Part shown: positions 2,000-30,529 of the stretch, piece after piece
Numbering within the stretch: position 1 is the stretch's first letter
Layout: each line of letters begins with the position of its first letter
NCBI GenBank assembly: GCA_964036045.1
Contig: OZ038384.1
Coordinates: forward strand, 48,661,843-48,725,842
DNA length: 64,000 nucleotides
Source: Eutreptiella sp. 'Long Island Sound 2002'
Lineage: Eukaryota; Euglenozoa; Euglenophyceae; Eutreptiales; Eutreptiaceae
Direction of reading: 5' to 3'
The notes under the pieces: model-generated
The model's database searches: none
The model's input: the letters and a program-made list of their open reading frames with translations, nothing else
What the model was told of the DNA's origin: nothing
Made by a program: the position numbers and the translations under genes

Positions 2000-3084
2000 T
2001 CCCGACCGGTAGACGCTGTGGCGGCTGCCCTATAGGGGGCATGCCCCCATACTGGGCACGGCGGTGTGGCTGCGTGGGGGTGCTCAGGGCACCTGTTGCC
2101 TCGATCGGCGTTCCAAGCCCGAGACCACAGTCTAACTATGTCAGCACATACCCGTTGGAGTGCTCCAGTTGCCAGTAGGTTGCTGGTGTAGAGAGGGCAG
2201 TGTCTCTAGTTTCAGCCCAGCCTGGCCCAGCTTTCTGCTTTCCGGCTGTACCCTGCCTGCAATATGAGTTCTGTTATGAACACGGACACACAATTGTGAA
2301 ATCAACTACCTGTGTGCGTGTGTGTGAAGGCGCCCAGTCGCGCAACTTTTGTTGTTTGCTGCCTGGCGAGGCAAACCACACTCAGACAACAGCTTTGTGT
2401 TGTCTGTTGTCTGGGTGTTTGTCTGCTTCACAAGGGCGCCCGCGCATGTGCGCTCAGCGGAGTGGTTCGCAGAGCTATTGCGGAGGTCTCCCTATTTGGT
2501 ACCACCATCCTCCCACCAGGCACCTGGATCTTATGTCTGTTGTGTGCCAACATCCAGTCCCAGTGGATGGACAACATCAGCCTGTCCCTACTCTGCTGAG
2601 GGTCCTGGACCACAATCAAGGGTCCTGCCTCAGGATGTGAACCCTTAGTGTCTCCAATGCTTTGGCCTAGCACAGGAGCCTTGAATGCTCCCATGGATAA
2701 GATGCAAAATTATTGGGGGGGCGGGGGGCTGTGAAATGGTGAAATGCAAATTCAAAGGATTTGCAGGCAAAGAAGGGGGGGGGGGGGTGCAGAAATATGC
2801 AAAAACAATTGGCCAACAACAGCAATCACCGGAGGCAAGTGATGGGGGGTCCGTGGAAAAAAAACTTGTCAAAATTTTGGCGAAGTTTTGAAACTTAAAA
2901 AAAAAAATTTCTGACTCAGTTTTTTCACGTCTTGGGTGTTTTTTGCTGTGTTCCGAAACTTAGTACAAAAATCTATTTACTAAGGGAAAAAATAGTGGAA
3001 AATTTTTTTCTAGGGATATAGCTAAATTTTTGCCCCCCTAGAACCTAGTTTTTCCCGCCCTAGAACCCCTAGACAGCCGGGTTT
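2000..3084. other. Intronic or intergenic sequence, nothing recognised
   Basis: No coding region with consistent frame and no transposon ends are seen. A poly-G run occurs at 2776-2787. An AT-rich stretch follows at 2860-3060, next to the repeat block at 3085. Confidence 0.5.
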
Positions 3085-3400
3085 GTGTAGCCACTTCTGA
3101 TTTCTGCCCCGCTTTGGGGATTCTCCAAACAGTGGGGTTATGTGGCCACTTCGCCCACAAATAAGACGGCAAGCATTATGTAGCCACTTTGCCACCATTT
3201 AGACACCCAAGACTGCAGGGATCATGTAGCCAATGCTAATTTGCTCTCCGCTTTGGGGACCCCCAAAACTACAGGGGTTATGTAGCCACTTCTGATTTCC
3301 GCTCTGCTTTGGTGGTCCTTGCGATGGTAGGGGTTATGTAGCCACTTTGCCCACAAGTAGGCGCCCAAGATGGCAGGGTTATGTAGCCACTTCTGATGTC
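3085..3400 (-). repeat. Degenerate copies of the 85-bp dyad repeat, reverse orientation
   Basis: Four to five imperfect units carry the phrases GTTATGTAGCCACTT and TCTGATTTC next to GCTTTGGGG. This is the reverse complement of the 85-bp unit repeated at 13567-13998 and 38186-38372. There are no transposon ends here, so this is a solo or decayed array. Confidence 0.75.
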
Positions 3401-3406
3401 CTCTCT

Positions 3407-3882
3407 GTTTTGCTGGCCCCGCTCTGCACTGCCCTGCCCTGTACCCTGAACACTGGCACTGACACATGCAAATCCGACATCCAACACTGCAATACTCCAC
3501 TGACCGGTATTTGCGTCTGGGGCTGTCTGGCCCATGATGTGAGCGATACATATGCTCGCGCCTGTCGCATGGCGCTGAAATAGACGAGGGCCTCCGATGA
3601 GGCTCAGGCAGGTTAGAAATACATCAAGCTGGGGTGTGAGAGTGTGGGGTGGGTAGCACGTACCTCAGGCACTGACACTGTCACTGTCACTGTAGCCGTC
3701 AGTGACATTGCTGCCTCTGCCCCCCCCCCCTCACTCGGCAAAACAAAAGTTGCTATGCGCAACTTGTGTTTTGCTGGCCCCGCTCTGCACTGCCCTGCCC
3801 TGTACCCTGAACACTGGCACTGACACATGCAAATCCGACATCCAACACTGCAATACTCCACTGACCGGTATTTGCGTCTGGG
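3407..3882. repeat. 115-bp direct repeat, two copies
   Basis: Positions 3407-3521 and 3768-3882 are identical as far as I can read (offset 361 bp). The copies start at GTTTTGCTGGCCCC and end at GCGTCTGGG. The sequence between them includes unrelated material with a poly-C run at 3721-3730. This is a recent duplication. Confidence 0.9.
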
Positions 3883-3984
3883 AAAAAATAAAAATACGTG
3901 CTCGCGGGTGTCGCCAGTGTCTGCGACTCCTGCCTGGCATCATGGCCGCGCCTCCTGTCTGACATCCTGCACACATCCTGCTGA

Positions 3985-4490
3985 GCATGCATGTAGAGGG
4001 TGCAAGCACAGTGGGCCCGGCGGCTGCCGCAGCACACGTCCACGGCGCCGGGCATCCGAAAGCAAAGCGCGCCGAACCAGGGTCGTGCCAGTACAACCTA
4101 GAAAATGGAAACAGGCACGTGAACCATTCAATCTGAAAGGGGACACACAGCGTGCCCTTGCCTTCTGTGAGGGGTGCTCGTGGGCAGCTGATGCATCCAC
4201 CCGACATCCGTGTCCTGTCGCATGTGTGGTGCCCTGCACGCTGCGCCCTGCATTCAATGAGTGCGTGTACATCCTCCCGAGTATGCATGTAGAGGGTGCA
4301 AACACCATGGGCGCGGCTGCTGCAGCACACGTCCACGGCGCCGGGCACCAGAAAGCAGAGCGTGCCGAATAAGGGTCGTGCCAGTGCAAACCGAGAAAGG
4401 GGTAGCAGGCACGCGGAGCACGCAGACTGAAAGGGTAAGGACAGCTGGCCCGGCTGCCGCGGCACACGTCCACAGCGCCAGGCACACCGC
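3985..4490. repeat. About 298-bp tandem repeat, two copies plus a partial third
   Basis: Segments starting at 3985 and 4283 (ATGCATGTAGAGGGTGCAA) share the GCACACGTCCACGGCGCCGGGC core and the following about 120 bp. A shorter third piece lies at 4448-4490. The long open frames on both strands here come from the GC-rich repeat and are not supported as genes. Confidence 0.8.
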
Positions 4491-5159
4491 ACAGCTTAGG
4501 GTGCGAACAGGGCAGCCACTCGCCATACGAGGGCTGGGCGCCCTTGCACCCACAAGTACGGCAGGGCCTGTCCAACTTCCCTGTGGTGTGTGCTTAGGGA
4601 CAGGTAGACAGGCCCTTCCGCCATGAGTAGGCGCCAGCGGTGCCTGCAGTGGTGTCGCCCTAGTCCCTTTACGTTCCCATTGCCTGTGGGGGTGACACAT
4701 TGATCGGGGATGATGCGCAAGCGGTCACCGATGTCCCAAACCGCCTCACTGAGCACGTCTGGCGCTGCACTGTCCTCAAACGGCACGGCAAACACCAACC
4801 TCGCCGCTCAACCAAGAAAAACGCGCCGCACAGCGCGGCCTGCCACACGACGAGCACGCACAGAACGGATGCGTGCCAGGGCGCGCGCCGCGCGGCATGC
4901 CGCCGCCTGCGCGGATCTGCGGTGCCGGCGGCCACCGCGACGGCCCCGCTGCCTGCGCCCCCTCAAACGCGAACGAGTCATCAAAAAATGGCAAAGAAGC
5001 GAACTGCACAATGCACGGATCCCTGAAGGCCCATCCACCACCCAACTCCCACTGGCTGTCGCGTCTGACCGCCGTTAGTGCCGCCAATGCCCGGGCTGCC
5101 AGCCGTACGACCCACACATGACCGACTGCTGCCTGTCCCTGTCAGCTATGCTGCCCCAC
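4491..5159. other. No recognised gene; 3' flank of DIRS-like element 1
   Basis: The sequence is GC-rich with overlapping open frames on both strands but no conserved motif. The right part may include the 3' terminal sequence of the retroelement that ends near 5160. I could not identify its terminal repeats. Confidence 0.4.
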
Positions 5160-6960
5160 GCACCGCAAAAAAATCGCCTCCCTGGCCTTGGCCTGCACGA
5201 CAATGTCCCTAGCCGATAGTCCACTGAACCAGCGGGAAACCGGGTCTGCCGGGTTCAGTGGGGAGGGTACGTAGTGCAGCTGCACCACCCTGCCACCGTA
5301 ACCTGTGTGCCAGGCGCCTCATTATGCGCTGCTGCTCCGGCAGTGCAATACCAGTCCTGCCCCAAAGTGCTGTGCTCAGTGGCCCTGTGTTATCCACAAA
5401 CAGGTTGGTTGGTCCCTTGGCCCTTTCGAGCCCCGCGAGGACTCCCGGCCCTTTCGAGCCCCGCGAGGACTCCCCAGAGTTGTGCTGACTGCTGTGACGT
5501 CACCCAGCGGGGGCAGCGCCTAATCCAGGGGCCTGCCCGGTCCCAGATACCTACCCAGTACCCTCCTGGCCCTTGCGCGGCATCCACAAACATGCACGGT
5601 GCACGTGTGAAAGTGTGTTGGGTGCAGGCAGGCATCCATCCACGCAGCGCGCAGCATAGACCCTCCAAGAGGCCCCTGACAAGGTTTGGTGACGCCCTGG
5701 GCGCCCAGCGCAGCCCAAAGTGCAGCCAGGCTCGTGCGCCACTCCAGAATGCGGCCGCTGTGTTGCCAGGCCGCCCTAGCCATACCATGCGGCCCAAGAG
5801 CCTCTTGAGGGACACCTGTGTCAGCGGGGTCACCGCTAGGCGTATCCACCTGGCCACGCAATCTGCCACAGCCACTGGTCTGGGCTTGATGCTGCCTGCC
5901 TGTGCGTTCACTCTCTTACCCATCCACGTGACTTTAGCCACACGGGTGAGGATGCTCTTAGCCCCAATCAGGAAACCTGCCTTACTCAGGGCGCTGGTCA
6001 CATCGTGGGTCACCTTGTGGACTTCTTGCTTCTGCTTGCCAACCACCAGGTTGTCATCCAGGTACTGCACCACCACCACACCTCCTGGGTCAACATGGGC
6101 AATCACTGTCGTGATGAGGTGCTGCACAAGCCCCGGGGCCTGGTGCCAACCGAAGGGCACACGCACGATAGCAAAGGACCTATCGCCAACTCCCACCCTT
6201 ATCGCCCTGGTCAGGTGGGGGGGGGGGGGGGGTGGATCGACCAGTAGCAATTTGCCAGGTCAATTTTCGTCGCCCAGCCCCCCCCACCGCACGCAGCAGG
6301 TCAACCAGGCCCTCCAAAGTGGGCAGCCTGAAGCGCCGGGCCTTGTAGGCACAGGTGTGGTTGAAGGCTTTCATGTTGAGGATGAGGGCGGCTTTTGCCT
6401 CGCTCTTCCACTTGACAAAAACTGAGGCATTGGGTGCCTCCCCCGTGCCCTCCACCAGGCCCTGGCGCTCCAGGGCATTGAGCAGGGCCTGCGCCTTGGG
6501 GCATCGCGAGTGGGGCTAGGTCGGCGCGCTGCGGCCCGCCCATTCGAAGCACGGGTCTGCCCACTGCTCCCACAGGGCTGGGGGCATTTGTACGGATCCC
6601 GCGTTCCCCAGACCCTTGGCTGCCAGCTGTACCGACACTTTGCGGCCTTCACCCAGCACCGGCGAACTGGCGTCCTCTGGTGGGCCGTTCACCGCCAGCT
6701 CGCGCAGGACTTCATGCAGCAGTTGCAGGTCCGCCCTCTTCACCTCCGGGGCCAGGGGCCTGTCCCATATCCACAGTAACGCCGTGTGCCACCAGAGCTT
6801 CAGCACGTTCACGACTTTGCGTTCGTGCACTCAGAGCCGGGACGACAGTTTACCGGCTGCTGCCCGCATGTGCGCTGGCAGTGCGTCTCCGCACTTGCCG
6901 CAGGCTGTGGGCTCCCCCGGCGGGCTCATCTCAAGCGGCTGAACCTCGCCGGACTGTTGC
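5160..6960 (-). CDS. Reverse transcriptase-RNase H of DIRS-like element 1 (frameshifted)
   Basis: Reading right to left: a leader with a CGKCGDALPAHMR patch, then an RT finger region (KAALILNMKAFN, RFRLPTLEGL). RT motif A is KIDLANCYWS, immediately followed by the poly-C tract 6219-6232 that shifts frame. Motif B is RVPFGWHQAP and motif C is QYLDDNLVVG. RNase H follows with FVDAAQGPGGYW and VDNTGPLSTALWG, and after another frame change VPSPLNPADPVSRW near 5220-5270. The usual Glu in the second RNase H motif appears as Gln (SAQLWGVL). A TGA at 6831 and a TAG at 6516 interrupt the upstream part. The gene is inactive as it stands. Confidence 0.85.
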
Positions 6961-7088
6961 CCCTAGAACTTGTGTCAGCCTGCTGGTGGTCTTCGGCGGA
7001 GGGCACACCTGGTTTGCACCCGGACGCGTACCGTGCGGCGCTGCGCCTACGGGGCGACGCATCCCACTGGCAGATCCCGAGTTGGTTC

Positions 7089-8591
7089 CTAGCTGTTGGC
7101 AGTGGCGTCGTCGTCGCTGTCGTCGCTGGAGTCGGATATGACGATTGGTATGGGTGCCGTGCCCTTCGCTCTCGCGGAGGCCTCACCACCCATGACTGCC
7201 ATTGGCCACATTTCCATCTGCGACGTTGCGCGTAGCGTGGCCCCCACTCCGGGCGCTGGCCAGGGGAGCAGGGCAGGGAGCTCCCACTCCCAGTCGAGCG
7301 GGGACGTGGCGTACTCTGCTGCCTGCCGTTCGGACTTCCACCGTCCCCACCTGGCCATGACCGCCATTGCTGCCCCCGTGGCAGCCAGTGCCGCTGCCCC
7401 CAGCCTGCGGAAAGCGTGCCAGGCCACTGAGTGCCACACTGTGCCCATGAGTGCAACTCGCAGGGCGTGCTGGAGTTCAGCGGTTGAGGCGAATAGCGGG
7501 ATCCAACCCGGCCTGTGCTAGTGGCTGAGCCGTGCCGTGATCCACCTGCCTTGGGTCTTCTGGTCATAGAAGGCCACTCTCCAGGGTGTCGCCAGATCTT
7601 TTGGCCGCACTGAAGCGGCCTCACTGACACGCCAGCACAGGGCTGTCCCCAGACAGGCCAGCGCGACGACTGCTGTGCCAAATGGCCCCGAGGTACGTGC
7701 GTCCAGTACCTGCAGTGTGTGCGCATTGGCCCAGATCCGCCGGGGCGGTGGGTGTGCGTAGGCCCGGTCTGCTGCCTTGCATATGGCCCAGTGGAGTGGG
7801 GTAACCACCGTGTCGACGATGCCCAGTGTTTCACACATGCGGACGATGGATACAACACCTCTGAGTGTGGCGGATTGTCGTCCTTGCGCTGCCAGCATGG
7901 TGAGGTGCTTGGCCAATGCCGAGGCGGCGTCAAGGTCTGCATACATGAGCGCCGTTCTGCCAACGCGTTGCAAGTCGCGGCGCCAGTTTCGTCTGGTGCT
8001 CTCTGCCCAGGCTTTGACTGCCAGTGCACCCGGCTCTGTCGCGACGTCCCCTGCTGTGAGTGCATCCAGGGAGGTGGCCAGGCAGCGTAGCTGGATTGCC
8101 GTCCCGTCGTTTGTGCCAAGGTCGTCCCCTGCTGCCCCCGGCTCTCCCGGTGCACTTGCGCTACTGCTGGGGTTGGGATTGGGGCTGTGGTTGGGGTTGG
8201 GGTTGTGGTGGCATGCTTGGTTGTCGCGCCGGGCATGGTTGCCAGCTCCACTGGTTGCCGTGGCATCTGCTGCAGGGGTAAGGCGGGGGCCCGGACGCAT
8301 CATACTGTCGCCCCACCTGTGTGAACCCCCCCGTACGGGGGGGGGGGCTGATGCCACCGAAGCCGGGGCTGTGTGGGCTTGTGGCATTTGCGATGCCTGC
8401 GGCCACTGTGCAGCCTGCGCCTGCAGCATTTGTGGGGTGAGCTGCTGTGGCATGGGGGCCGCCGTCACACAATCTCTCGACCAGTGCCCGTACATTCCGC
8501 ATCTGAAGCACGCCCCTGGTGGCCCAGGGTGCGTGCGAGTCACTTGTTGTAGTGGTACTTGGGGGGCTGCCTGGAAAACGGGGATCGCCTG
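7089..8591 (-). CDS. Zinc knuckle plus tyrosine recombinase of DIRS-like element 1
   Basis: The frame continues directly from the Gag frame past TAG 8592. A CCHC knuckle (CFRCGMYGHWSRDC, near 8490) is followed by a Pro/Gln-rich linker. A recombinase N-terminal domain comes next (AESTRRNWRRDL), then the catalytic core. The first catalytic Arg lies in LCWRVSEAA (near 7630), the His-x-x-Arg in WHAFRRLGAAALA (near 7410), and GRWKSERQAAEYA carries the terminal Tyr (near 7330). An Asp/Ser-rich tail (SDSSDDSDDD) ends at 7089. One in-frame TAG (7518-7520) separates the Arg box from the His-x-x-Arg box. All catalytic residues are present, so only that codon would block a full-length enzyme. Confidence 0.85.
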
Positions 8592-9610
8592 CTAGTGGGC
8601 AATAATTGTCCCTGTTGCCACGGGCGCGGGTTGCGGGGCTGGCTGCGGCGCTCTCGTGGTCACAGTCAGGTACAGGGTAGTCCATACCGCCGCGCGCAGT
8701 ACCTCTCCCGCCTTCGCCGCATCCTCCGCTCCCGCCATCGGTGTCGCCCCATATGCCTGCAGTGCCGCCACCAAGTCCCTCTCCATCCCGGCCTGCATCG
8801 CCTTGTCGCTGACGGCCTTGAGCTGCTCCTCTGAGCATAACCTATAGATAGGGGGATCTTGGGCATTCGGAGCTTAGCGATCTTGGCTTCCAGGTCTGCA
8901 ATTTCCTTTTGTACGGGGTCCACCTCCGGCGCATTTTGCGGCTGGTCTTGTGGCTGCCCTTGTGGCGGTTTCGGTGCCTCGACCCACTTCCCCTGTAGCA
9001 GGTCCACCTTGTATGGCTTGGCCTTCTCATATACTGCCAGTGCCAGCAGCACTTCGTGATCCGGCTTGCCTGGTGCCGCCCAGTGTACCATCTCCTGCAC
9101 CCCTGCCTCAGTGAGCCCTTGGCGCGTTGCCCTCTCTCGATACCCAAGTGCCTCTGCCGCCTTGGCCTCCGGTGGAAGGAAGGCCGTTGCGATCGGCGCG
9201 CATGTCTCGAGCCACACCTTCCATTGCGCGCATAGGGGGTCGAGCCCCGCTGCCTCAATGTCCATCGGGTCCTCGAACACCAAGCGGGGCCGTTTGCTGC
9301 GGGATGAGTCATCCCAACTGGCTTCTGGCATGCCCCCCCGGACTCGCCCAAGGAGGTGTAGCGTGCACTTCTCCGTCACGCCGTAGTCCTCCAGGGTGTG
9401 ATCACCTTTGACCAGCTGCTTCCCCGCGTACATGAGACGCTGATGTTCAGCGGCGATGCCTTCTCGTGCTGCTACTTGGTCCCTCACATGGCCCACCGGC
9501 GTGTGCCCCGCCTGCAGGTGGACCGCGATGGTTTTGGGCCCCGTGTTGACGAAAATACAGCGGCTCTCGCGTGCCTCAGCCGCCCTTCGTCCTCGGCTTC
9601 TGCTCGGCAC
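8592..9610 (-). CDS. Ubiquitin-like domain fused to Gag-like protein
   Basis: Residues about 19-93 (nt 9332-9556) read as a ubiquitin-like fold. It opens with IFVNTGPKTIAVHL, has REGI and QRLMYAGKQL in the middle, and ends TLHLLGRVRGG. These match the ubiquitin positions for IFVKT, KEGI, QRLIFAGKQL and LRLRGG, with the Lys48 and Lys63 equivalents kept. After the Gly-Gly the protein continues as a hydrophilic Gag-like region. This includes a charged helix (EIADLEAKIAKLR) and, after a one-base frameshift near 8850, a second helical part ending at TAG 8592-8594. That TAG is in frame with the zinc-knuckle/recombinase ORF downstream. No ATG begins the frame; the 5' limit given is a GTG, so the true start or an upstream exon is unknown. 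A deubiquitinase could in principle release the Gag after Gly-Gly (inference). Confidence 0.8.
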
Positions 9611-9640
9611 GGCCGTGCCGTTGCGTCGATGTTGTCGCCC

Positions 9641-10026
9641 GCTTCACCCGCCGCGGCCTGTGGGCTGTCCCGGGCTCCCCCACCCCAACTGTTGGGAGGC
9701 CCCGCTGCTCCGCGGCTACTCCAGCCACTGCGCTGGGTATCCCCCCAAACAGCAGGGGCGGGGTAGTCCAGGGCGCCGTGCGTGGTTAGGCCGTCTGCTC
9801 CCGCGACGGCCTCGCTGGGCACCTCACCCCCGCCTGCCCCATCTGTCTCCACGTAGCGTCTTGGTGCAGGAACTCTGCTGTGCCGGGTTGTGTCGGGTTT
9901 CTGGGTGTTCTGGTCCGTGCCCGCAGTAGCGATGCGGTCTGTTCCTATGCACTTCTCGTTTTGGAGCGTGCCCCGCGCGGCCACCATGATCACGACCATG
10001 ACTGCGAGGCCCACAGCAGGCACCGC
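9641..10026 (-). other. 5' region of DIRS-like element 1, no conserved domain seen
   Basis: GC-rich sequence is open on the minus strand but without recognisable motifs. It may be leader sequence of the retroelement. The 10-bp array begins at 10027 without a visible target-site duplication. Confidence 0.4.
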
Positions 10027-11178
10027 CTACCCATAGGTGCCCATAGGCGCCCTGGGGTCCCCAAAGGTCCCCATAGGTGCCAATGGGTCTCCAAAGGTCC
10101 CTATAGGCCCCCATAGGTCGCCATAGGCGCCCATAGGTGCCCATAGGCCCCCAGAAGTCCCCATAGGTGCCAATGGGTCCCCAAAGGTTCCCATAGGTCC
10201 CCATAGGTGCCAATGGGTCCCCATAGGCCGCCATAGGTCCCCATAGGTGCCCATAGGTCCCCAGAGGACCCCATAGGTCGCCATAGGTGCCAATGGGTCC
10301 CCATAGGTCCCCATAGGCCCCCATAAGTCCCCATAGGTCCCCACAAGCCCCCATAGGCCCCGATAGGTGCCCATAGGCCCCAAAAGGCCACCATAGGTGC
10401 CAATGGGTCCCCAAAGGTTCCCATAGATGCCCATGAGTTCCCATCGGCCCCCATAGGTCCCCACAGGCCCCCATAAGTGCCAACAGGTCCCCATAGGCCC
10501 CCATAGGCACCCATAGGTACCCATAGGTCCCCACAGGCCCCCATAGGTCCCCATAGGCCCCGATAGGTCCCCACAGGTCCCCATAGGTCCCCATAGGTGC
10601 CCATAGGTGCCCACGGCCCCCATAGGTCCCCATAGGTCCCCATAGGCCCCCATAGGTCCCCACAGGTCCCCATAGTTGGCCATAGGTGGCCATAGGTGCC
10701 CATAGGTGCCCCCGGCCCCCATAGCTCCCCACAAGTCCCCATAGGTCCCCACAAGCCCCCATAGGTCCCCATAGGCCCCCACAGGTCCCCAGAAGTCCCC
10801 ATAGGTCCCCAGAGGTCCCTATGGGTCCCCATAGGCCCCCATAGGTCCTCATAGGTTACTAGAGGTCCCCAAAGGCCCCCATAGGTCCCCACAAGTCCCC
10901 ATATATCCCCATAGGTCCCCATAGGTGCCCACGGTCCCCATACGTCCCCATAAGCACACAGAGGTCCCCATAGGTCCCCACAAGCCCCCATAGGTCACCA
11001 TAGGCCCCCACAAGTCCCCATAGGTCCCCATAGGTCCCCATAGGCCCCCTTGGGTCCCCATAGGTCCCCATAGGTTCCCAGAGGTCCCCAAAGGCCCCCA
11101 TAGGTCCCCACAGGCCCCCATATATCCCCATAGGTCCCCATAGGCCCCCATAGGTCCCCACAAGCCCCCACAGGTCCA
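10027..11178. repeat. 10-bp tandem array, about 115 units
   Basis: The unit is GGTCCCCATA with variants GGCCCCCATA, GGTGCCCATA and CAAGCCCCCATA. Because 10 is not a multiple of three, the repeat is read in all frames in turn, and no common variant makes a minus-strand stop. The long minus-strand frames encoding a Gly-Pro-Met-Gly-Thr-Tyr-Gly-Asp-Leu-Trp repeat are therefore expected without selection. No start context or flanking domain supports a gene. Confidence 0.97.
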
Positions 11179-11990
11179 TAGGGCGCTTCAACGGCCCTCA
11201 CAGCACGACCACCACGATAAGCATTAACAATGGTGAGCACATAGTCCACAAAACCGGCACCAATTGGGACGAGGGGCAAATCGGAAAAAGTACACTGGTG
11301 CTCTATCACCAGCTTCGCAATGTTCAAGCTTTGAAAACCACAAGACCAACCGTCCGTTTGGAATCCCCTGCATTCTCGGGGTCCCCAACGCCAAGCGCGG
11401 GGAAAAAATCAGAAGTGGCCCACAGGTGGGCACATCGCCTTCAGGCATGCATTTTCAGTAAAATTATATTGCCTTCGGCAAGGCACCTCGAAGAGGGGAG
11501 AGGAACTACCATTTTTGAGGTGCCGAGGCTATAAAACTACATAAGCAGGTTGTGCCCTGGCCCCCTTGGGAGCCCCCCCCCCCCAACACCCAAATAGGGT
11601 GAAACACACACAAAGAGGGACTAAAACATGCTTTATATCGCATATTATTTTTTGCAAAATTTTCCATTTTTCACCTGCAGAGGGTGGAAAACTGCTTGTT
11701 TGTGCGCACACCAAATGCCATTGAAACACCTACAAACAGCAATTTCGAAGCTTTTGGGGGGTCCATGGCTCAGCCTAGATGGGCCCAGTGGCCACTATGT
11801 GGGTCCCGATGGGCACTCAAGTACCCGTATTGTCACCAAATGATCACCCAAACCCAACCTGGGGCAACAAAAGGGTTTCGGAAAAAGTCGAAGTGTGAAA
11901 ATTTTTTCAGCTGCCACTATAGGCCCATGGCAAGGGCTACATAGTGGTGGTGGGCACATCGCCCACATGCATGCATTTTCAGTAAAATTG
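11179..11990. other. Unique sequence with a 40-bp direct repeat; no gene recognised
   Basis: The phrase GTGGGCACATCGCC plus CATGCATTTTCAGTAAAATT occurs at about 11427-11464 and again at 11950-11989, the second copy abutting the MITE. The stretch at 11385-11440 also contains the AATCAGAAGTGGCCCAC start of the 85-bp repeat family. No coding region is supported. Confidence 0.6.
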
Positions 11991-12265
11991 GTAATTGTTT
12001 CTTTGCGGTAAGGTCGTGTAATTTTTTTTATTTTTGCTGTAAACGCGTGTAGGAAAAAATCGTCACATCGTGTATTTTTTTTTGCGGTAAGTCGTGTAAT
12101 TTTTTTTTGCGGTAAATGCGTGTAACAAAAAAATCGTCACGTCGTGTAATTTTTTTTTGCGGTAATGCGTGTGACCGGCTTACACGAGTTAACGCAAAAA
12201 AAATTACACGACTAGACAATTTTTTTGTTACACACATGTACCGCAAAAAAAAATACACGAATTAC
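11991..12265. mobile_element. Fold-back MITE (GTAATT ends, TTGCGGTAA repeats)
   Basis: The left part carries repeated TTTTTTTTGCGGTAA followed by GCGTGTAA or CGTGTAA. The right part (from about 12180) carries the same repeats inverted (TTACACG, TACCGCAAAAAAAA). Ends read GTAATT on the left and its complement AATTAC on the right, so the element could fold on itself. It has no coding capacity. A second partial copy lies at 63774-64000. Confidence 0.75.
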
Positions 12266-12269
12266 AACA

Positions 12270-12485
12270 TACACCTATGAATGCCAAACAGCACGCAATC
12301 AGTATGTTTTGCAAGACCCCATCTGCCTCAGAAGGTTCATGTTGCCACTGTTGCCCAACCCATGCCACCTCTTTGGAGACCCAGGTGAATTGGCGCCAGA
12401 GTCATCAGAGAACACTTGGCGCCCTCCCCTGCCCGCGCTAGTGGACCTCAACCAAGCCCTTTGGGAGGGAGCCGTTCAACAATAG
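12270..12485 (+). other. Small plus-strand open frame, unidentified
   Basis: About 70 codons reading through NPCHLFGDPGELAPESSENT to a stop at 12485, between the MITE and DNA transposon copy 1. Composition is protein-like but there is no domain I recognise. It may be a fragment of an older element. Confidence 0.2.
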
Positions 12486-12727
12486 TGATGGGGGCTGTGC
12501 AACGCAGCCCGGGAGGGTCGGAATCACCGGGGGTTACCCTTAAGTGGGTCGGGTATTTGGTAAAACTGAGTACCAGACGAGGTAAAACTGAGTAAAATGT
12601 GGTAAAACTGAGTAGATTTGAGGTAAAACTAAAACTGAGTAAAAATTTTTTTTAAAAAAAAAATTTTTTTTTACTCAGTAAAAAGACAATTTTTTTCTGA
12701 AAAAAAATGCACAAAAAACTGCACACT

Positions 12728-20554: not shown

Positions 20555-21163
20555 CTAGAACCCTTGCCTTCGGTGTCGTAAGCAAGGAGAATGTACAAAA
20601 AATCGGAAAAATATGTAACAATGGCACTCACGTGCGAATGTAACATGCATGTATATCACCTCTATACTATAAAATTGCATAGGAAAGCGTCGAATTGTGG
20701 ACACTGTCGTCGCCGCCATCAGAAAATCTGACGGGCGGCGATCATCGCCATCCGGATCACCACTGAGATCTAGCCCAAACAAGGCAAAGCCGGGGTGTCG
20801 GGGTGCAAAACATTGAAATTCAGTGATTTTGCCGCAAAAATCACCAAAATCCCGTGTCTCCCCCCAAGTCGTCGGGTTGCCGTACCCTGGCGTACGGCGC
20901 CGAATCCGAAATATTTTTGAACACTGGGGTGGTTGCTTCTGCTCAAGGGCAAGAGGGGTCCTAATAAAGCGCTGTATGATTTTTCGGAGAAAATCTTTCA
21001 CGGCTACTTTTTTGGTCGAAAATTGACCTCCGCGGAATGGCCCGAAAGTGGCTGCGCTACAATATTTCAGTCCCAAAATCAACACAAATATCATAATTCT
21101 CTTTAAAATTTGCAGAAATCGAGAAATAGATCCTTGATGTTGTGCTACGGGCGCACGCGACAA
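20555..21163 (-). other. Unit spacer with a long open frame (unit 1); coding status doubtful
   Basis: A 202-codon minus-strand frame recurs in units 1, 2, 4 and 5 (20555-21163, 23283-23891, 27967-28506, 30662-31351) but with different starts and lengths and no recognisable motif. It lies between recombinase end and unit boundary, where terminal or internal complementary repeats would be expected in a DIRS element. Conservation between units only reflects recent duplication. Confidence 0.35.
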
Positions 21164-21282
21164 TTGTCGGCGCCGAGCACAGAAACCACTGATTCATGTG
21201 GTATCCTCCACTTGAATCCAAAGAAATCACGTAGGTTTTGGCCGAAAATAAAGAAAATTAGCCACAGGAGAAGTCCTGCAGC

Positions 21283-22198
21283 TCACAGCACCAATAGCAG
21301 GGCAGCGGGTATGGTTGGGGCACCCCATACCCCGCGGGCAAGATGTCTCGCAGGGAGAGCATGCCCCACAACATATCCCCGTCCCCTCGCGGCCAGGTGA
21401 GCTCGACCCTCTCCGCAACCACGAAGGACTCCGTAGTATGCAGCAGTGGCTTGGTGGTGCCACCTCCCCCACCAGGCCAGGAAATGGACGGGCAGCCCCA
21501 ACCATCGCCACGCCGCAGCGCCGCCCCGTCTCCAAACATGCCACCGGGCATGGGACATGTTGCTGCCACTGAGCGCCCAAGCCATCGTCGGCTGCAAAAA
21601 CCCGGCTCCTTGGGGACAGAAGTGGTCTGTGACCCGTACAGCAGTACTGCCCAACGCGTCCAGCCAACACAGCCAGCCCATGGCATAGCCGCCCAAGGCC
21701 CTTTGGAGGGGTCGCGGATCAATATTGACGGTGCGGAACCGCTGCCCACTCACACGCCCCCCCCCCCCCTCCTCAGTGGGACGCTTCCCCCACCCGGAGG
21801 AGGCAGGCGAATGATACGACAACCAGTGCATAGGCCGTCCAATGCGCCCGGGTACCACAGGCGCGTGCGAAGACGCGCGACTCCTCGAGCCCGGCGTAAG
21901 GCCAATAAACCTCCGGTGAAGATGACCACTTTGCGCAGTGCCACCCGTGCTCGGTGACAAAATTTGGGACCCACCCCATGTCCTCCAGCGCTCGGAAGGC
22001 CGACGCGCCACCCTTGAGGTACCTCTGCGAGTATTCCCTGCCCCTTAGGTGAAAGAGGTACCTACATGCTTCCGCCTCCAACTGCCCGCTCAAAGTGCAG
22101 CCCACCCACAAGTTGAGTTTGCTGAAATTTGCCACAGTACGTACCCATCGCACTTTTGCTCCACGAGGATGCCTGTAGCGCGTCGACGAAGTCGACAC
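21283..22198 (-). CDS. Tyrosine recombinase, unit 1 (split by poly-C tract)
   Basis: The N-terminal half (21773-22198) carries YLKGGASAFRALEDMG and ends in the catalytic Arg box FACLLRVGEAS. The C-terminal half (21283-21756) carries RFRTVNIDPRP, then RWHVWRRGGAAAW (His-x-x-Arg), LAWWGRW and ATAAYYGV (terminal Tyr). The halves are separated by a 13-nt poly-C tract at 21757-21769, which puts them in different frames. A first frame break occurs at the Gag/recombinase join (see unit 3). Confidence 0.8.
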
Positions 22199-23118
22199 GT
22201 TGACTCTTCCACAGCCCCCTGCACGCCGCCCATACCCATCTCCATATCACGCCCCCGGTGTCTTGGAAGTCTGCCGGGGCTAGGATGACCGGGAGCCGCT
22301 CTGCAGACCGCTCCCATAGGGAGCTGCGGCCCCATCCGTCAAACCCTGGGCATTCATGGAACCAATGATGCTTGATTCCACACCCGGCATTTCGGCACCC
22401 CCTGCATGCGGTCGTCACATCCATCCAATCCGCCCCCGGCTTTGGGGTATACCATCTACATCTGTCGGCCACATGGAACTGCGACTTGAGTGCCTCTAGC
22501 CTACACTTGAGCACGTCCGCCTTGGCAGCCCCCGTTGCTCCCTTGGAACATACAAGCAGGTCATCATCCCCCCAGGAGGATGACGCATCTCCAAATTCCG
22601 TCTTCTTCTCCGGGCCGTGCATTCCACAGTAAGCCGCCACACTGAAGACCGTGAACGTCCAAAATGCTTGGACAAACCCCTTGGCGCGCTCCTTGTCCAA
22701 AAGGTCGGTATCCGCAATGGGGACAATCTCCTCCAACGCAGCGTGGGTGAATTTCTCCTTGTCCTTGAACTTGGACACGTACTCATGCTGTGGTACCTCC
22801 AGGCGCCATGCCAGTACGGAAAGTGCTAGCAGGGCCGTATACACCGACTGCGGTTTGTTCTCAACGTCATGTATCTTGGCTAGCTCCGCTTTGCCCAACG
22901 GGGGTATGCCGGTCAGTTTTCTCTTGGCGTCCGCCTCCGCCTTGGCAGATACCCCCGCTAGCTCCTTCTACAAGGAGGATACCATAGGCGGCTGGTCCCG
23001 CACCATTTTTCGAAAATCCGCCAGCTCCGGCGATGGCTGCGATAATCCCGTCTCTGCGGCCTGGAGCTCGCGGAATGCTCCGCCTCCAACGTCCAGAGTA
23101 CAAGAGGCGAACACGTAG
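22062..23118 (-). CDS. Gag-like ORF, unit 1
   Basis: Same protein as unit 5 but lacking the first about 75 residues, because the unit boundary cuts the gene at GAYYVFASC. The in-frame TAG is at 22968-22970, after SSL. The Cys/His motif CRGCRNAGCGIKHHWFHEC is intact. It overlaps the recombinase frame at its 3' end. Confidence 0.7.
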
Positions 23119-24010
23119 TATGCCCCCGGGCCCCAGGCCCTCGGAGGGCGATTCATCAGGCTTCGGAATGCATTTCCACAACCCCATACCCCCGCATGCA
23201 TAACCCCAAATCCCACTGAAATCATAAGATCATTCTCGATTAGGGGCTTCAAGCCCACTCAGTTTGGGTAGTCCAAACGAATCTAGAACCCTTGCCTTTG
23301 GTGTCGTAAGCAAGGAGAATGTACAAAAAATCGGAAAAATGGGTGACGATGTTGCTCGCTTGCGGGTGTAACGTGCATGTATATCACCTCTATACTATAA
23401 AATTGCATAGGAAAGCGTCCAATTGTGGACACTGTCGTCGCTGCCATCAGAAAATCTGACGGGCGGCGATCATCGCCATCCGGATCACCATTGAGATCTA
23501 GCCCAAATAAGGCAAAGCCGGGGTTTCGGGGTGCCAGACGTTGAAGTTTAGTGGTTTTGCCGCAAAAATCACCAAAATCCAGTGTCTCCCCCCAGGTCGT
23601 CGGGTTGCCGTACCTTGGCGTACGGCGCCGAATCCGAAATATTTTTGAACACTGGGGTGGTTGCTTCTGCTCAAGGGCAAGAGGGGTCCAAATAAAGCGC
23701 TGTATGATTTTTCGGAGAAAATCTTTCACGGCCACTTTTTTGGTCGAAAATTGACCTCCGCGGAATGGCCCGAAAGTGGCTGCGCTACAATATTTCAGTC
23801 CCAAAATCAACACAAATATCATATTTCTCTTTAAAATTTGCAGAAATCGAGAAATAGATCCTTGATGTTGTGCTACGGGCGCACGCGACAATTGTCGGCG
23901 CCGAGCACAGAAACCACTGATTCATGTGGTATCCTCCACTTGAATCCAAAGAAATCACGTAGGTTCTGGCCGAAAATAAAGAAAATTAGCCACAGGAGAA
24001 GTCCTGCAGC

Positions 24011-24926
24011 TCACAGCACCAATAGCAGGGCAGCGGGTATGGTTGGGGCACCCCATACCCCGCGGGCAAGATGTCTCGCAGGGAGAGCATGCCCCACAAC
24101 ATATCCCCGTCCCCTCGCGGCCAGGTGAGCTCGACCCTCTCCGCAACCACGAAGGACTCCGTAGTATGCAGCAGTGGCTTGGTGGTGCCACCTCCCCCAC
24201 CAGGCCAGGAAATGGACGGGCAGCCCCAACCATGGCCACGCCGCAGCGCCGCCCCGTCTCCACACATGCCACCGGGCATGGGACATGTTGCTGCCACTGA
24301 GCGCCCAAGCCATCGTCGGCTGCAAAACCCCGGCTCCTTGGGGACGGAAGTGGTCTGTGACCCGTACAGCAGTACTGCCCAACGCGTCCAGCCAACACAG
24401 CCAGCCCATGGCATAGCCGCCCAAGGCCCTTTGGAGGGGTCGCGGATCAATATTGACGGTGCGGAACCGCAGCCCACTCACAGCCCCCCCCCCCCCTTCC
24501 TCAGTTGGACGCTTCCCCCACCCGGAGGAGGCAGGCGAATGATACGACAACCAGTGCATGGGCCGTCCAATGCGCCCGGGTACCACAGGCGCGTGCAAAT
24601 ACGCGCGACTCCTCGAGCCCGGCGTAAGGCCAATAAACCTCCGGTGAAGATGACCACTTTGCGCAGTGCCACACGTGCTTGGTGACAAAATTTGGGACCC
24701 ACCCCATGTCCTCCAGCGCTCGGAAGGCCGACGCGCCACCCTTGAGGTACCTCTGCGAGTATTCCCTGCCCCTTAGGTGAAAGAGGTACCTACATGCTTC
24801 CGCCTCCAACTGCCCGCTCAAAGTGCAACCCACCCACAAGTTGAGTTTGCTGAAATTTGCCACAATACGTACCCATCGCACTTTTGCTCCACGAGGATGC
24901 CTGTAGCGCGTCGACGAAGTCGACAC
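24011..24926 (-). CDS. Tyrosine recombinase, unit 2
   Basis: Arg box LLRVGEAS, His-x-x-Arg in RWHVWRRGGAAAW and terminal Tyr in ATAAYY are all present. The poly-C tract is 13 nt (24484-24496), again followed by a frame change. Confidence 0.8.
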
Positions 24927-25690
24927 ATTGACTCTTCCACAGCCCCCTGCACGCCGCCCATACCCATCTCCATATCACGCCCCCGGTGTCTTGGAAGTCT
25001 GCCGGGGCTAGGATGACCGGGAGCCGCTCTGCAGACCGCTCCCATAGGGAGCTGCGGCCCCATCCGTCAAACCCTGGGCATTCATGGAACCAATGATGCT
25101 TGATTCCACACCCGGCATTTCGACACCCCCTGCATGCGGTCGTCACATCCATCCAATCCGCCCCCGGCTTTGGGGTATACCATCTACATCTGTCGGCCAC
25201 ATGGAACTGCGACTTGAGTGCCTCTAGCCTACACTTGAGCACGTCCGCCTTGGCAGCCCCCGTTGCTCCCTTGGAACATACAAGCAGGTCATCATCCCCC
25301 GAAGAGGATGACGCATCTCCAAAATCCGTCTTCTTCTCCGGGCCGTGCATTCCACAGTAAGCCGCCACACTGAAGACCGTGAACGTCCAAAATGCTTGGA
25401 CAAACCCCTTGGCGCGCTCCTTGTCCAAAAGGTCGGTATCCGCAATGGGGACAATCTCCTCCAACGCAGCGTGGGTGAATTTCTCCTTGTCCTTGAACTT
25501 GGACACGTACTCATGCTGTGGTACCTCCAGGCGCCATGCCAGTACGGAAAGTGCTAGCAGGGCCGTATACACCGACTGCGGTTTGTTCTCAACGTCATGT
25601 ATCTTGGCTAGCTCCGCTTTGCCCAACGGGGGTATGCCGGTCAGTTTTCTCTTGGCGTCCGCCTCCGCCTTGGCAGATACCCCCGCTAAT
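24790..25690 (-). CDS. Gag-like ORF, unit 2 (5' truncated by deletion)
   Basis: The frame is intact from KAELAKIHDVENK to the overlap with the recombinase. Upstream, the unit 2/3 deletion at about 25688 removes the TAG site and the rest of the N-terminal part. Confidence 0.7.
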
Positions 25691-25978
25691 CTTTCACGGC
25701 CACTTTTTTGGTCGAAAATTGACCTCCGCGGAATGGCCCGAAAGTGGCTGCGCTACAATATTTCAGTCCCAAAATCAACATAAATATCATAATTCTCTTT
25801 AAAATTTGCAGAAATCAAGAAATAGATCCTCGATCTTGTGCTGCGGGCGCACGCGACAATTGTCGGCGCCGAGCACAGAAACCACTGATTCCTGTGGTAT
25901 CCTCCACTTGAATCCAAAGAAATCACGTAGGTTCTGGCCGAAAATAAAGAAAATTAGCCACAGGAGAAGTCCTGCAGC

Positions 25979-26463
25979 TCACAGCACCAATAGCAGGGCA
26001 GCGGGTATGGTTGGGGCACCCCATACCCCGCGGGCAAGATGTCTCGCAGGGAGAGCATGCCCCACAACATATCCCCGTCCCCTCGCGGCCAGGTGAGCTC
26101 GACCCTCTCCGCAACCACGAAGGACTCCGTAGTATGCAGCAGTGGCTTGGTGGTGCCACCTCCCCCACCAGGCCAGGAAATGGACGGGCAGCCCCAACCA
26201 TGGCCACGCCGCAGCGCCGCCCCGTCTCCACACATGCCACCGGGCATGGGACATGTTGCTGCCACGGAGCGCCCAAGCCATCGTCGGCTGCAAAAACCCG
26301 GCTCCTTGGGGACAGAAGTGGTCTGTGACCCGTACAGCAGTACTGCCCAACGCGTCCAGCCAACACAGCCAGCCCATGGCATAGCCGCCCAAGGCCCTTT
26401 GGAGGGGTCGCGGATCAATATTGACGGTGCGGAACCGCAGCCCACTCACACGCCCCCCCCCCC
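25979..26463 (-). CDS. Tyrosine recombinase C-terminal half, unit 3
   Basis: Carries RFRTVNIDPRP, RWHVWRRGGAAAW and ATAAYY. The poly-C tract preceding it is 11 nt (26453-26463), the shortest of the five. Confidence 0.8.
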
Positions 26464-26467
26464 TTCC

Positions 26468-27800
26468 TCAGTTGGACGCTTCCCCCACCCGGAGGAGGCA
26501 GGCGAATGATACGACAACCAGTGCATAGGCCGTCCAATGCGCCCGGGTACCACAGGCGCGTGCAAAGACGCGCGACTCCTCGAGCCCGGCGTAAGGCCAA
26601 TAAACCTCCGGTGAAGATGACCACTTTGCGCAGTGCCACACGTGCTCGGTGACAAAATTTGGGATCCACCCCATGTCCTCCAGCGCTCGGAAGGCCGACG
26701 CGCCACCCTTGAGGTACCTCTGCGAGTATTCCCTGCCCCTTAGGTGAAAGAGGTACCTACATGCTTCCGCCTCCAACTGCCCGCTCAAAGTGCAGCCCAC
26801 CCACAAGTTGAGTTTGCTGAAATTTGCCACAACACTTTTGCTCCACGAGGATGCCTGTAGCGCGTCGACGAAGTCGACACATTGACTCTTCCACAGCCCC
26901 CTGCACGCCGCCCATACCCATCTCCATATCACGCCCCCGGTGTCTTGGAAGTCTGCCGGGGCTAGGATGACCGGGAGCCGCTCTGCAGACCGCTCCCATA
27001 GGGAGCTGCGGCCCCATCCGTCAAACCCTGGGCATTCATGGAACCAATGATGCTTGATTCCACACCCGGCATTTCGACACCCCCTGCATGCGGTCGTCAC
27101 ATCCATCCAATCCGCCCCCGGCTTTGGGGTATACCATCTACATCTGTCGGCCACATGGAACTGCGACTTGAGTGCCTCTAGCCTACACTTGAGCACGTCC
27201 GCCTTGGCAGCCCCCGTTGCTCCCTTGGAACATACAAGCAGGTCATCATCCCCCGAAGAGGATGACGCATCTCCAAAATCCGTCTTCTTCTCCGGGCCGT
27301 GCATTCCACAGTAAGCCGCCACACTGAAGACCGTGAACGTCCAAAATGCTTGGACAAACCCCTTGGCGCGCTCCTTGTCCAAAAGGTCGGTATCCGCAAT
27401 GGGGACAATCTCCTCCAACGCAGCGTGGGTGAATTTCTCCTTGTCCTTGAACTTGGACACGTACTCATGCTGTGGTACCTCCAGGCGCCATGCCACTACG
27501 GAAAGTGCTAGCAGGGCCGTATACACCGACTGCGGTTTGTTCTCAACGTCATGTATCTTGGCTAGCTCCGCTTTGCCCAACGGGGGTATGCCGGTCAGTT
27601 TTCTCTTGGCGTCCGCCTCCGCCTTGGCAGATACCCCCGCTAGCTCCTTCTACAAGGAGGATACCATAGGCGGCTGGTCCTGCACCGTTTTTCGAAAATC
27701 CGCCAGCTCCGGCGATGGCTGCGATAATCCCGTCTCTGCGGCCTGGAGCTCGCGGAATGCTCCGCCTCCAACGTCCAGAGTAAAGGAGGCGAACACGTAG
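26468..27800 (-). CDS. Gag-recombinase fusion, unit 3
   Basis: In this unit alone a 13-bp segment present in all others (around GTACGTACCCATCG, unit 1 position 22138) is missing. Gag and the recombinase N-terminal half then read as one frame: DALQASSWSKS joins VVANFSKLNL and runs to LLRVGEAS. The in-frame TAG at 27650-27652 still separates the N-terminal part. This unit shows the two domains belong to one polyprotein. Confidence 0.75.
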
Positions 27801-28694
27801 TATGCCCCCAGGCCCTCAGGCCCTCGGAGGGCGATTCATCAGGCTTCGGAATGCATTTCCACAACCCCATACCCCCACATGCATAACCCCAAATCCCACT
27901 GAAATCGGTGAGATCATTCTCGATTAGGGGCTTCAAGCCCACTCAGTTTGGGTAGTCCAAACGAATCTAGAACCCTTGCCTTTGGTGTCGTAAGCAAGGA
28001 GAATGTACAAAAAATCGGAAAAATATGTAACAATGGTACTCACGTGCGAATGTAACATGCATGTATATCACCTCTATACTATAAAATTGCATAGGAAAGC
28101 GTCGAATTGTGGACACTGTCGTCGCCGCCATCAGAAAATCTGACGGGCGGCGATCATCGCCATCCGGATCACCACCGAGATCTAGCCCAAACAAGGCAAA
28201 GCCGGGATTTCGGGGTGCAAAACATTGAAATTCAGTGATTTTGCCGCAAAAATCACCAAAATCCAGTGTCTCCCCCCAAGTCGTCGGGTTGCCGTACCCT
28301 GGCGTACGGTGCCGAATCCGAAATATTTTTGAACACTGGGGTGGTTGCTTCTGCTCAAGGGCAAGAGGGGTCCTAATAAAGCACTGTATGATTTTTCGGA
28401 GAAAATCTTTCACGGCCACTTTTTTGGTCGAAAATTGACCTCCGCGGAATGGCCCGAAAGTGGCTGCGCTACAATATTTCAGTCCCAAAATCAACATAAA
28501 TATCATAATTCTCTTTAAAATTTGCAGAAATCAAGAAATAGATCCTCGATCTTGTGCTGCGGGCGCACGCGACAATTGTCGGCGCCGAGCACAGAAACCA
28601 CTGATTCCTGTGGTATCCTCCACTTGAATCCAAAGAAATCACGTAGGTTCTGGCCGAAAATAAAGAAAATTAGCCACAGGAGAAGTCCTGCAGC

Positions 28695-29609
28695 TCACAG
28701 CACCAATAGCAGGGCAGCGGGTATGGTTGGGGCACCCCATACCCCGCGGGCAAGATGTCTCGCAGGGAGAGCATGCCCCACAACATATCCCCGTCCCCTC
28801 GCGGCCAGGTGAGCTCGACCCTCTCCGCAACCACGAAGGACTCCGTAGTATGCAGCAGTGGCTTGGTGGTGCCACCTCCCCCACCAGGCCAGGAAATGGA
28901 CGGGCAGCCCCAACCATCGCCACGCCGCAGCGCCGCCCCGTCTCCAGACATGCCACCGGGCATGGGACATGTTGCTGCCACTGAGCGCCCAAGCCATCGT
29001 CGGCTGCAAAAACCCGGCTCCTTGGGGACAGAAGTGGTCTGTGACCCGTACGGCAGTACTGCCCAACGCGTCCAGCCAACACAGCCAGCCCATGGCATAG
29101 CCGCCCAAGGCCCTTTGGAGGGGTCGCGGATCAATATTGACGGTGCGGAACCGCATCCCATTCACACGCCCCCCCCCCCCTCCTCAGTTGGACGCTTCCC
29201 CCACCCGGAGGAGGCAGGCGAATGATACGACAACCAGTGCATAGGCCGTCCAATGCGCCCGGGTACCACAGGCGCGTGCAAAGACGCGCGACTCCTCGAG
29301 CCCGGCGTAAGGCCAATAAACCTCCGGTGAAGATGACCACTTTGCGCAGTGCCACACGTGCTTGGTGACAAAATTTGGGACCCAGCCCATGTCCTCCAGC
29401 GCTCGGAAGGCCGACGCGCCACCCTTGAGGTACCTCTGCGAGTATTCCCTGCCCCTTAGGTGAAAGAGGTACCTACATGCTTCCGCCTCCAACTGCCCGC
29501 TCAAAGTGCAGCCCAGCCACAAGTTGAGTTTGCTGAAATTTGCCACAATACGTACCCATCGCACTTTTGCTCCACGAGGATGCCTGTAGCGCGTCGACGA
29601 AGTCGACAC
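28695..29609 (-). CDS. Tyrosine recombinase, unit 4
   Basis: All catalytic motifs as in unit 1. The poly-C tract is 12 nt (29169-29180). Confidence 0.8.
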
Positions 29610-30529
29610 ATTGACTCTTCCACAGCCCCCTGCACGCCGCCCATACCCATCTCCATATCACGCCCCCGGTGTCTTGGAAGTCTGCCGGGGCTAGGATGAC
29701 CGGGAGCCGCTCTGCAGACCGCTCCCACAGGGAGCTGCGGCCCCATCCGTCAAACCCTGGGCATTCATGGAACCAATGATGCTTGATTCCACACCCGGCA
29801 TTTCGGCACCCCCTGCATGCGGTCGTCACATCCATCCAATCCGCCCCCGGCTTTGGGGTATAACATCTACATCTGTCGGCCACATGGAACTGCGACTTGA
29901 GTGCCTCTAGCCTACACTTGAGCACGTCCACCTTGGCAGCCCCCGTTGCTCCCTTGGAACATACAAGCAGGTCATCATCCCCCCAAGAGGATGACGCATC
30001 TCCAAATTCCGTCTTCTTCTCCGGGCCGTGCATTCCACAGTAAGCCGCCACACTGAAGACCGTGAACGTCCAAAATGCTTGGACAAACCCCTTGGCGCGC
30101 TCCTTGTCCAAAAGGTCGGTATCCGCAATGGGGACAATCTCCTCCAACGCAGCGTGGGTGAATTTCTCCTTGTCCTTGAACTTGGACACGTACTCATGCT
30201 GTGGTACCTCCAGGCGCCATGCCAGTACGGAAAGTGCTAGCAGGGCCGTATACACCGACTGCGGTTTGTTCTCAACGTCATGTATCTTGGCTAGCTCCGC
30301 TTTGCCCAACGGGGGTATGCCGGTCAGTTTTCTCTTGGCGTCCGCCTCCGCCTTGGCAGATACCCCCGCTAGCTCCTTCTACAAGGAGGATACCATAGGC
30401 GGCTGGTCCTGCACCATTTTTCGAAAATCCGCCGGCTCCGGCGATGGCTGCGATAATCCCGTCTCTGCGGCCTGGAGCTCGCGGAATGCTCCGCCTCCAA
30501 CGTCCAGAGTACAAGAGGCGAACACGTAG
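29473..30529 (-). CDS. Gag-like ORF, unit 4
   Basis: As unit 1, with the in-frame TAG at 30379-30381 and the N-terminus cut at the unit boundary. One Trp to Cys change sits just before the Cys/His motif (RCRCYTPKPG versus RCRWYTPKPG). Confidence 0.7.

Follow-up and report, generated by a model that had tools for sequence, protein, structure and literature searches.

A ubiquitin domain directly ahead of Gag in a euglenid tyrosine-recombinase-like retroelement: a putative deubiquitinase cutting site

Introduction

A degenerate retroelement in the genome of the euglenophyte Eutreptiella sp. raises the question of what a ubiquitin (Ub) domain does directly ahead of a Gag-like protein. The element lies on the minus strand of a 64,000-nucleotide stretch of DNA (hereafter the window), in which the original prediction had recognised a Ub-like domain ending in Gly-Gly and fused to the Gag of a DIRS-like retroelement. 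In natural ubiquitin fusions, Ub ends in Gly-Gly, is followed by Met or a partner protein, and is cut by deubiquitinases. To our knowledge, tyrosine-recombinase elements have no recognised protease.

Materials and methods

Ratios of nonsynonymous to synonymous change (dN/dS) were estimated by the NG86 method, pooled over 27 of the 30 near loci that were fetched from the genome (L001 being the window copy), with intervals obtained by codon bootstrap. The tandem duplicates L010, L018 and L019 were left out. L020 was read partly in the wrong frame, and in L023 and L030 the reading frame changes at the junction between Ub and Gag or close to it.

The recombinase tree comprised 14 rows, namely 11 of the 17 listed loci and three proteins. 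The filter on matches (start at query residue ≥95 and 120 residues) dropped L002, L007, L029, L037, L041 and L043. P0074 was counted provisionally with the Ub-bearing rows and was placed next to family C.

Results

In the window, Ub and the Gag-like sequence share a single ORF, 8666-9643 on the minus strand, which has no Met ahead of Ub. The features of the element are as follows.

9332..9559, minus strand: ubiquitin domain of 76 residues, CIFVNTG...LGRVRGG (PF00240, PDB ubiquitin matches, identity, dN/dS)
9332..9337, minus strand: equivalent of Gly75-Gly76, putative cleavage site (Gly-Gly in nearly all copies with codons there)
9329..9331, minus strand: Met that follows Gly-Gly (lines up by eye with the initial Met of sister Gags that have no Ub)
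8875..9331, minus strand: Gag-like region in the same frame as Ub (protein alignments; Gag core dN/dS)
8592..8873, minus strand: Gag continuation, coiled-coil part, in a shifted frame (by reading, matches the in-frame Gag of P0010, P0018 and P0049)
9484..10026, minus strand: remnant of the N-terminal region in a shifted frame, sharing the Ub frame elsewhere among the copies (L001 aligned to P0043 residues 60-224)
8469..8513, minus strand: CCHC zinc knuckle (PF00098, 2.5e-4), sharing one frame with Ub in P0041
7308..8102, minus strand: tyrosine-recombinase-like region that runs across two frames, 7518-8591 and 7089-7517 (alignment; homologous across families A-E)
7611-7637, 7404-7418 and 7308-7322, minus strand: recombinase motifs CWRVSEAAS, HAFRR and EYA, respectively
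5963..6175, minus strand: reverse transcriptase (RT) palm with YLDD (PF00078, 1.3e-7)
5209..6830, minus strand: RT/RNase H-like region, broken over several frames (ORFs and RVT_1; RNase H by eye only)

The window copy is frame-shifted after Gag, with knuckle, recombinase and RT all in shifted frames, and is therefore a dead copy. The predicted order, in which Gag lies upstream of a zinc knuckle, a recombinase and RT, was recovered, with PF00098 and PF00078 matching downstream of Gag; the recombinase in this series is a call from the R..HxxR..Y motif and from conservation across families, its region having no Pfam match in the window or in P0041 and a poor structure model (pLDDT 43). The 5209-5499 ORF matched no Pfam family, and about the first 59 residues of the N-terminal region were not found in the window copy. 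A tandem array with a 10-base unit (115 copies, 76% matches, open in several frames) occupies 10030-11177 and adjoins the point where the 5' part of the element is missing.

The ubiquitin domain is real. PF00240 matches it over profile positions 2-71 of 72 with E=9.3e-16 and 57.8 bits, well above the gathering score of 25.4, and 33 of 74 aligned residues are identical to human ubiquitin. A phmmer search against the PDB gave 407 distinct sequences at E≤10, and the 60 matches listed can all be identified, by label or otherwise, as ubiquitin, fusions of it or engineered variants. A NEDD8 origin was rejected, the window Ub having 26 identities to NEDD8 versus 33 to ubiquitin. In the structure model of the related protein P0043, a ubiquitin (beta-grasp) fold is predicted for the Ub part with block pLDDT mostly 79-91, and the best Foldseek match, which is also the sole one at ≤1e-3, is a ubiquitin (5l6h, E=6.7e-4). 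Profile, structure prediction and the shared ORF thus all agree with the prediction of a Ub-like domain fused to Gag.

Aligned to human ubiquitin, the window Ub keeps Lys48, His68, Arg72 and Gly75-Gly76. Equivalents of both Lys48 and Lys63 had been predicted; the former stands, while position 63 is Glu, with a Lys at position 64. Lys27, Lys29 and Lys33 are replaced by Arg, Gln and Arg, respectively, Leu8 is missing and Ile44 is Met. Element Ubs are generally without Leu8 and with Gly71, and those of family A, to which the window copy belongs, have Gly71 and Val73 at the ubiquitin Leu71 and Leu73 positions.

The domain is not confined to the window. A protein search returned 40 proteins (P0001 being the window itself), 21 of which carry a precomputed ubiquitin tag; the untagged relatives are mostly fragments that start past Ub or stop within it. 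A profile search returned 59 proteins, and 22 of 23 aligned proteins, chosen mostly for carrying the tag, match the ubiquitin model at E≤0.01. The long ORFs P0041, P0042 and P0043 run from the N-terminal region through Ub, Gag and a coiled coil to the zinc knuckle, with Ub and knuckle in one uninterrupted ORF in P0041. P0049 spans Gag, the knuckle and the beginning of the recombinase, and P0064 extends from the knuckle across the R, HxxR and Tyr motifs of the recombinase. Ub does not form the start of the protein, as had been supposed, since it begins at residue 78-323 of the predicted ORF in the 15 family A ORFs measured. Residues 1-85 of P0043, within the N-terminal region of family A, contain two modelled helices, 9-44 and 64-84, that appear hydrophobic on inspection and are possibly membrane-associated.

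Searching the 2.28-Gb assembly gave at least 152 matches, with 150 of 943 candidates scored, from a query that itself contained Ub, so the locus set is not an unbiased census. By hand count, 34 of 142 genomic matches begin at residue ≤48 and span most of Ub; most of the remainder cover Gag only, or Gag and the tail of Ub. Among the 30 near loci, 27 keep 66-76 of the 76 Ub codons and the other three, the tandem duplicates, also match Ub; 14 have no stop in the matched stretch, as counted from the match table. An internal stop in Ub was scored in five of the 27 (L011, L020, L024, L025 and L027), L020 being misread. The outcome that would have spoken against the original prediction, namely that no other copy carries the domain, did not occur, and its presence in related proteins and genomic copies rules out a single-copy accident. 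No relatives were confirmed in viral contigs.

Two more distant families also carry a Ub ending in Gly-Gly ahead of Gag: family B (L031-L035), with 29-30% identity to the window query, and family C (L036 and L037), with 37% and 35%, respectively. L033 has a single open frame of 1971 codons that comprises a chlorophyll a/b-binding sequence (PF00504, 1.7e-23), Ub (7.3e-9) and a zinc knuckle (2.8e-4). Similarity to the recombinase follows in the same frame, and RT occupies an overlapping one. Ub starts at residue 666 in L033 and is preceded by only 26 residues in L036. No Ub was found by phmmer in ORFs of ≥100 aa from the eight family D loci (L038-L044 and L050) or from L045 (family E), nor in L051 by reading its ORF.

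Six Ubs from families A, B and C, when compared, have four changes relative to ubiquitin in common: an extra residue before helix 1, an extra residue after Leu50, Gly at 60 and Gly at 71. We read these as probably reflecting one capture. The Ub of each family has 29-38 identities to ubiquitin versus 25-33 to the Ubs of other families; being about equally close to both, the raw identities do not decide, and separate captures may also have taken place. In the unrooted recombinase tree, the Ub-less families D and E fall together (91/96, not starred) and family B lies far from the rest, a topology that fits one gain of Ub as well as one gain followed by later loss.

Gly-Gly is present in 29 of the 31 protein rows having both columns (window included) and in 25 of the 26 genomic copies with codons there, with synonymous third-base variants among them. 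The exceptions are P0005/L029 (Arg-Val) and P0021 (Glu-Gly). Directly after Gly-Gly, Met was scored in 23 of 26 copies; L020, scored as Val, reads Met in its proper frame, and L031 has Leu. In family A this Met, MPEAGGDGSSSSKRPRLAF, matches by eye the position of the initial Met in family D and L051, where the sequences begin MPG(D/G)TSNGSS..KRARLAF, MPEGTSNGSA..KRARLAF and MPDAKKRRILF. Ub thus sits exactly ahead of the native Gag start. In L045 the Gag start is different and longer. The junction has been lost in a few copies: P0012 keeps a diverged Ub and RVRGGMPEA is absent, and P0044 (a 500-aa ORF) and L021 have lost the tail of Ub together with the junction.

Both Ub and Gag are conserved under purifying selection. 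Over the 27 family A loci, dN/dS is 0.359 (0.285-0.451) for Ub. The two segments that precede Ub give 0.635 (0.469-0.846) and 0.716 (0.581-0.877), and downstream of Ub the values are 0.244 for the first 25 residues of Gag, 0.156 (0.122-0.197) for its core and 0.297 for the remainder. These intervals are too narrow because pairs of loci are not independent. Without L020, L023 and L030 the value for Ub is 0.313 (0.235-0.413), and for the 18 copies with long single alignments it is 0.304; in these stricter subsets the upstream parts still give 0.64-0.72. With intervals below 1, the weakly constrained N-terminal region of family A may itself have a function. In family B, all five pairs, which are not independent, give 0.23-0.28 for Ub and 0.55-1.17 for the chlorophyll-protein sequence, and the linker between the two gives 0.78-2.72. 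Moreover, conservation is higher in columns where the copies agree with ubiquitin than in the remaining columns, with permutations equally extreme in only 7 of 20,000 cases (all rows) and 49 of 20,000 cases (11 representatives). Across copies, position 68 is His in 22 of 24, position 48 is Lys in 23 of 27 and position 44 is Met in 24 of 27.

In family B, the region upstream of Ub has been exchanged. Chlorophyll a/b-binding sequence lies inside the Ub ORF in L031, L032 and L033; L034 has a nearly full-length domain of this type (6.7e-29) in a separate ORF upstream of its Ub-Gag ORF, and L035 has a stretch homologous to the L033 piece in another frame. The N-terminal parts of the Ub ORFs of L031, L033 and L034 have no mutual blastp match at 1e-3, while their Ub and Gag align well. 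Among these three loci, pS is 0.22-0.36 for the chlorophyll-protein pieces versus 0.62-0.64 for Ub and 0.70-0.76 for Gag, as expected of later, separate captures, although several chlorophyll-protein units repeat and some of the pS and dN/dS comparisons may pair different units. As judged from these comparisons, Ub is a conserved module between an apparently exchangeable N-terminal region and a Gag-zinc knuckle-recombinase part.

The L033 piece has its best PDB match in 9VFJ, the Euglena gracilis photosystem I (PMC12577709). Open frames of 4424-6122 aa in the same genome also contain chlorophyll-protein units, for example at C23:19071943 and C9:43682015; these resemble the light-harvesting polyproteins described for E. 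gracilis (PMC12965295). The captures in L033:340-6252 (plus strand), L031, L032, L034 and L035 apparently occurred more than once, from light-harvesting polyprotein genes. Upstream of Ub, residues 243-349 of the L031 ORF weakly resemble peptidase family M49 (E 0.006, which falls short of the curated cut-off) and are perhaps another captured host piece.

Discussion

A conserved Ub whose Gly-Gly stands directly before the native Gag start, behind an exchangeable region, is most simply read as a deubiquitinase cutting site. We put at roughly 0.6 the probability that Ub acts as a processing module, with host deubiquitinases cutting behind Gly-Gly so that Gag is released carrying its native N terminus. 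A euglenid tyrosine-recombinase retrotransposon lineage would have captured a ubiquitin, probably once, and would have retained it within its first ORF in the order variable N-terminal region, Ub, Gly-Gly, Met, Gag, zinc knuckle and recombinase. The cut that we infer would yield Gag starting at its native Met, separated from an N-terminal region still joined to Ub; Ub might thus take the place of a protease here and render Gag insensitive to whatever is fused upstream.

The uninterrupted ORFs that hold both Ub and Gag in several copies (P0041 and L033 among them) count in favour of cutting. Counting against it are the junction losses in P0012, P0044 and L021, the altered Gly-Gly of P0005/L029 and P0021, the Leu of L031, the separate ORFs of L034, the short stretch before Ub in L036 and the weak constraint on the upstream region in family A. 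The missing Leu8, Gly71 and, in family A, Val73 make recognition by deubiquitinases uncertain. The original suggestion that host deubiquitination processes or stabilises Gag is kept in part: the Gly-Gly end, the many copies and purifying selection are compatible with processing by deubiquitinases.

Alternatively, Ub might remain uncut and provide Gag with a permanent docking surface for ubiquitin-binding factors of the host (ESCRT, Cdc48 or the proteasome) that would act in assembly, transport or turnover. Late domains can be replaced by engineered fusions of Gag with ubiquitin (PMC2958808), and the conserved residues at positions 68, 48 and 44, as well as the persistence of the rest or most of Ub in P0012 and P0044 without a junction, would suit such a role. 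Those fusions, as described there, are C-terminal, lack Gly-Gly and depend on Leu8 and Ile44, whereas the element Ub lacks Leu8 and keeps Gly-Gly. A permanent surface also leaves unexplained why the native Gag Met is the very next residue. With the hydrophobic-patch residue Leu8 missing and Gly-Gly-Met placed at the native start of Ub-less Gags, the originally proposed route to ESCRT or the proteasome is weakened, and we regard it as unlikely. An internal start of Gag at the junction Met could also yield native Gag. Euglenids trans-splice their mRNAs. Internal initiation or trans-splicing might give rise to a Gag that starts at its own Met, with the region ending in Ub as a separate or regulatory product. 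The frequent Met at this position, which is the first Met in Ub-less families, speaks for such a start; Ub and Gag share an open frame in many copies, however, and a separate start does not require purifying selection on Ub, which makes this account less likely still.

It is quite improbable that Ub is passive captured host sequence without function, like the chlorophyll-protein pieces. Captured host sequence with little constraint on it is indeed present in these elements, but dN/dS of Ub is lower than that of the captured pieces at the same loci and than that of the upstream region in family A, and Ub occupies the same junction in three families that are 29-37% identical. Chance resemblance or mis-assembly, in favour of which nothing was found, is ruled out by E=9e-16, by the predicted ubiquitin fold and by the 34 listed genomic matches that extend across most of Ub.

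Putative cutting after Gly-Gly has parallels in known systems. In natural ubiquitin fusions (polyubiquitin, Ub-eL40 and Ub-eS31), Gly-Gly likewise stands directly before the partner or Met; in contrast to these, the element Ub is not N-terminal, has diverged and resides in a mobile element. Pestivirus polyproteins sporadically acquire host ubiquitin insertions in viral strains, which are cut by host deubiquitinases. They resemble the element in having ubiquitin within the polyprotein of a replicon, but are sporadic and strain-level, whereas the element Ub is an old module inherited within a retrotransposon lineage. For retroviruses, engineered fusions of Gag with ubiquitin were reportedly made by Joshi et al. 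in 2008. Fusions of this kind share with the element the joining of Ub and Gag in one protein; as described in PMC2958808, they are man-made, with a C-terminal Ub and Gly-Gly deleted, whereas the element fusion is natural, with Ub before Gag and Gly-Gly kept. Among the open-licence PMC matches listed, judged by titles and the starts of abstracts, no description of a Ub fused to Gag in a tyrosine-recombinase element was found.

Somewhat short of an even bet, we suggest that the built-in Ub is a host-operated cutting site in a retroelement without a recognised protease, a deubiquitinase-dependent counterpart of the 2A peptide, which would let captured host coding sequence (chlorophyll a/b-binding protein) be tolerated and exchanged at the front of the polyprotein without spoiling Gag. 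If true, this would be a natural, inherited use of the host ubiquitin-processing machinery for polyprotein maturation by a retrotransposon, and a testable answer to how tyrosine-recombinase elements, with no protease recognised in them, separate Gag from fused parts. The captured photosynthesis-gene sequence is seen to travel in the same ORF as Ub-Gag, and the diverged element ubiquitin may help define the minimal needs of deubiquitinases.

The DIRS-like layout of the original prediction was not upheld. The order Gag, tyrosine recombinase (YR), RT/RNase H (RH) is seen in the window and in L033, with RNase H recognised by eye only. DIRS1-like and PAT elements likewise have Gag, a tyrosine recombinase and RT, but in DIRS1 (PMC3266345) the catalytic part of the recombinase lies 3' of pol and a methyltransferase is present, neither of which is seen here: in the reading direction, the recombinase motifs (7308-7637) come before RT (5963-6175), and no Pfam family, methyltransferase included, was found in the five ORFs downstream of RT in the broken window copy. 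No inverted terminal repeats or internal complementary regions were evident in 3000-12500 of this copy, which lacks its 5' end. The kinetoplastid VIPER/TATE elements, from the same phylum as the euglenid host, have a Gag-like protein, a recombinase and then RT/RH; according to PMC6681497, Gag and recombinase are in separate ORFs, as opposed to one in the element, and the word ubiquitin is absent from the main text of that paper. By gene order, Gag-YR-RT resembles VIPER/TATE more than DIRS1.

Elsewhere in the window, at 20555-33109 on the minus strand, one set of ORFs occurs five times in succession, mostly about 2.7 kb apart. Within these repeats, the 26468-27649 ORF has no Pfam match and ends in a motif, LLRVGEAS, that is recombinase-like by eye.
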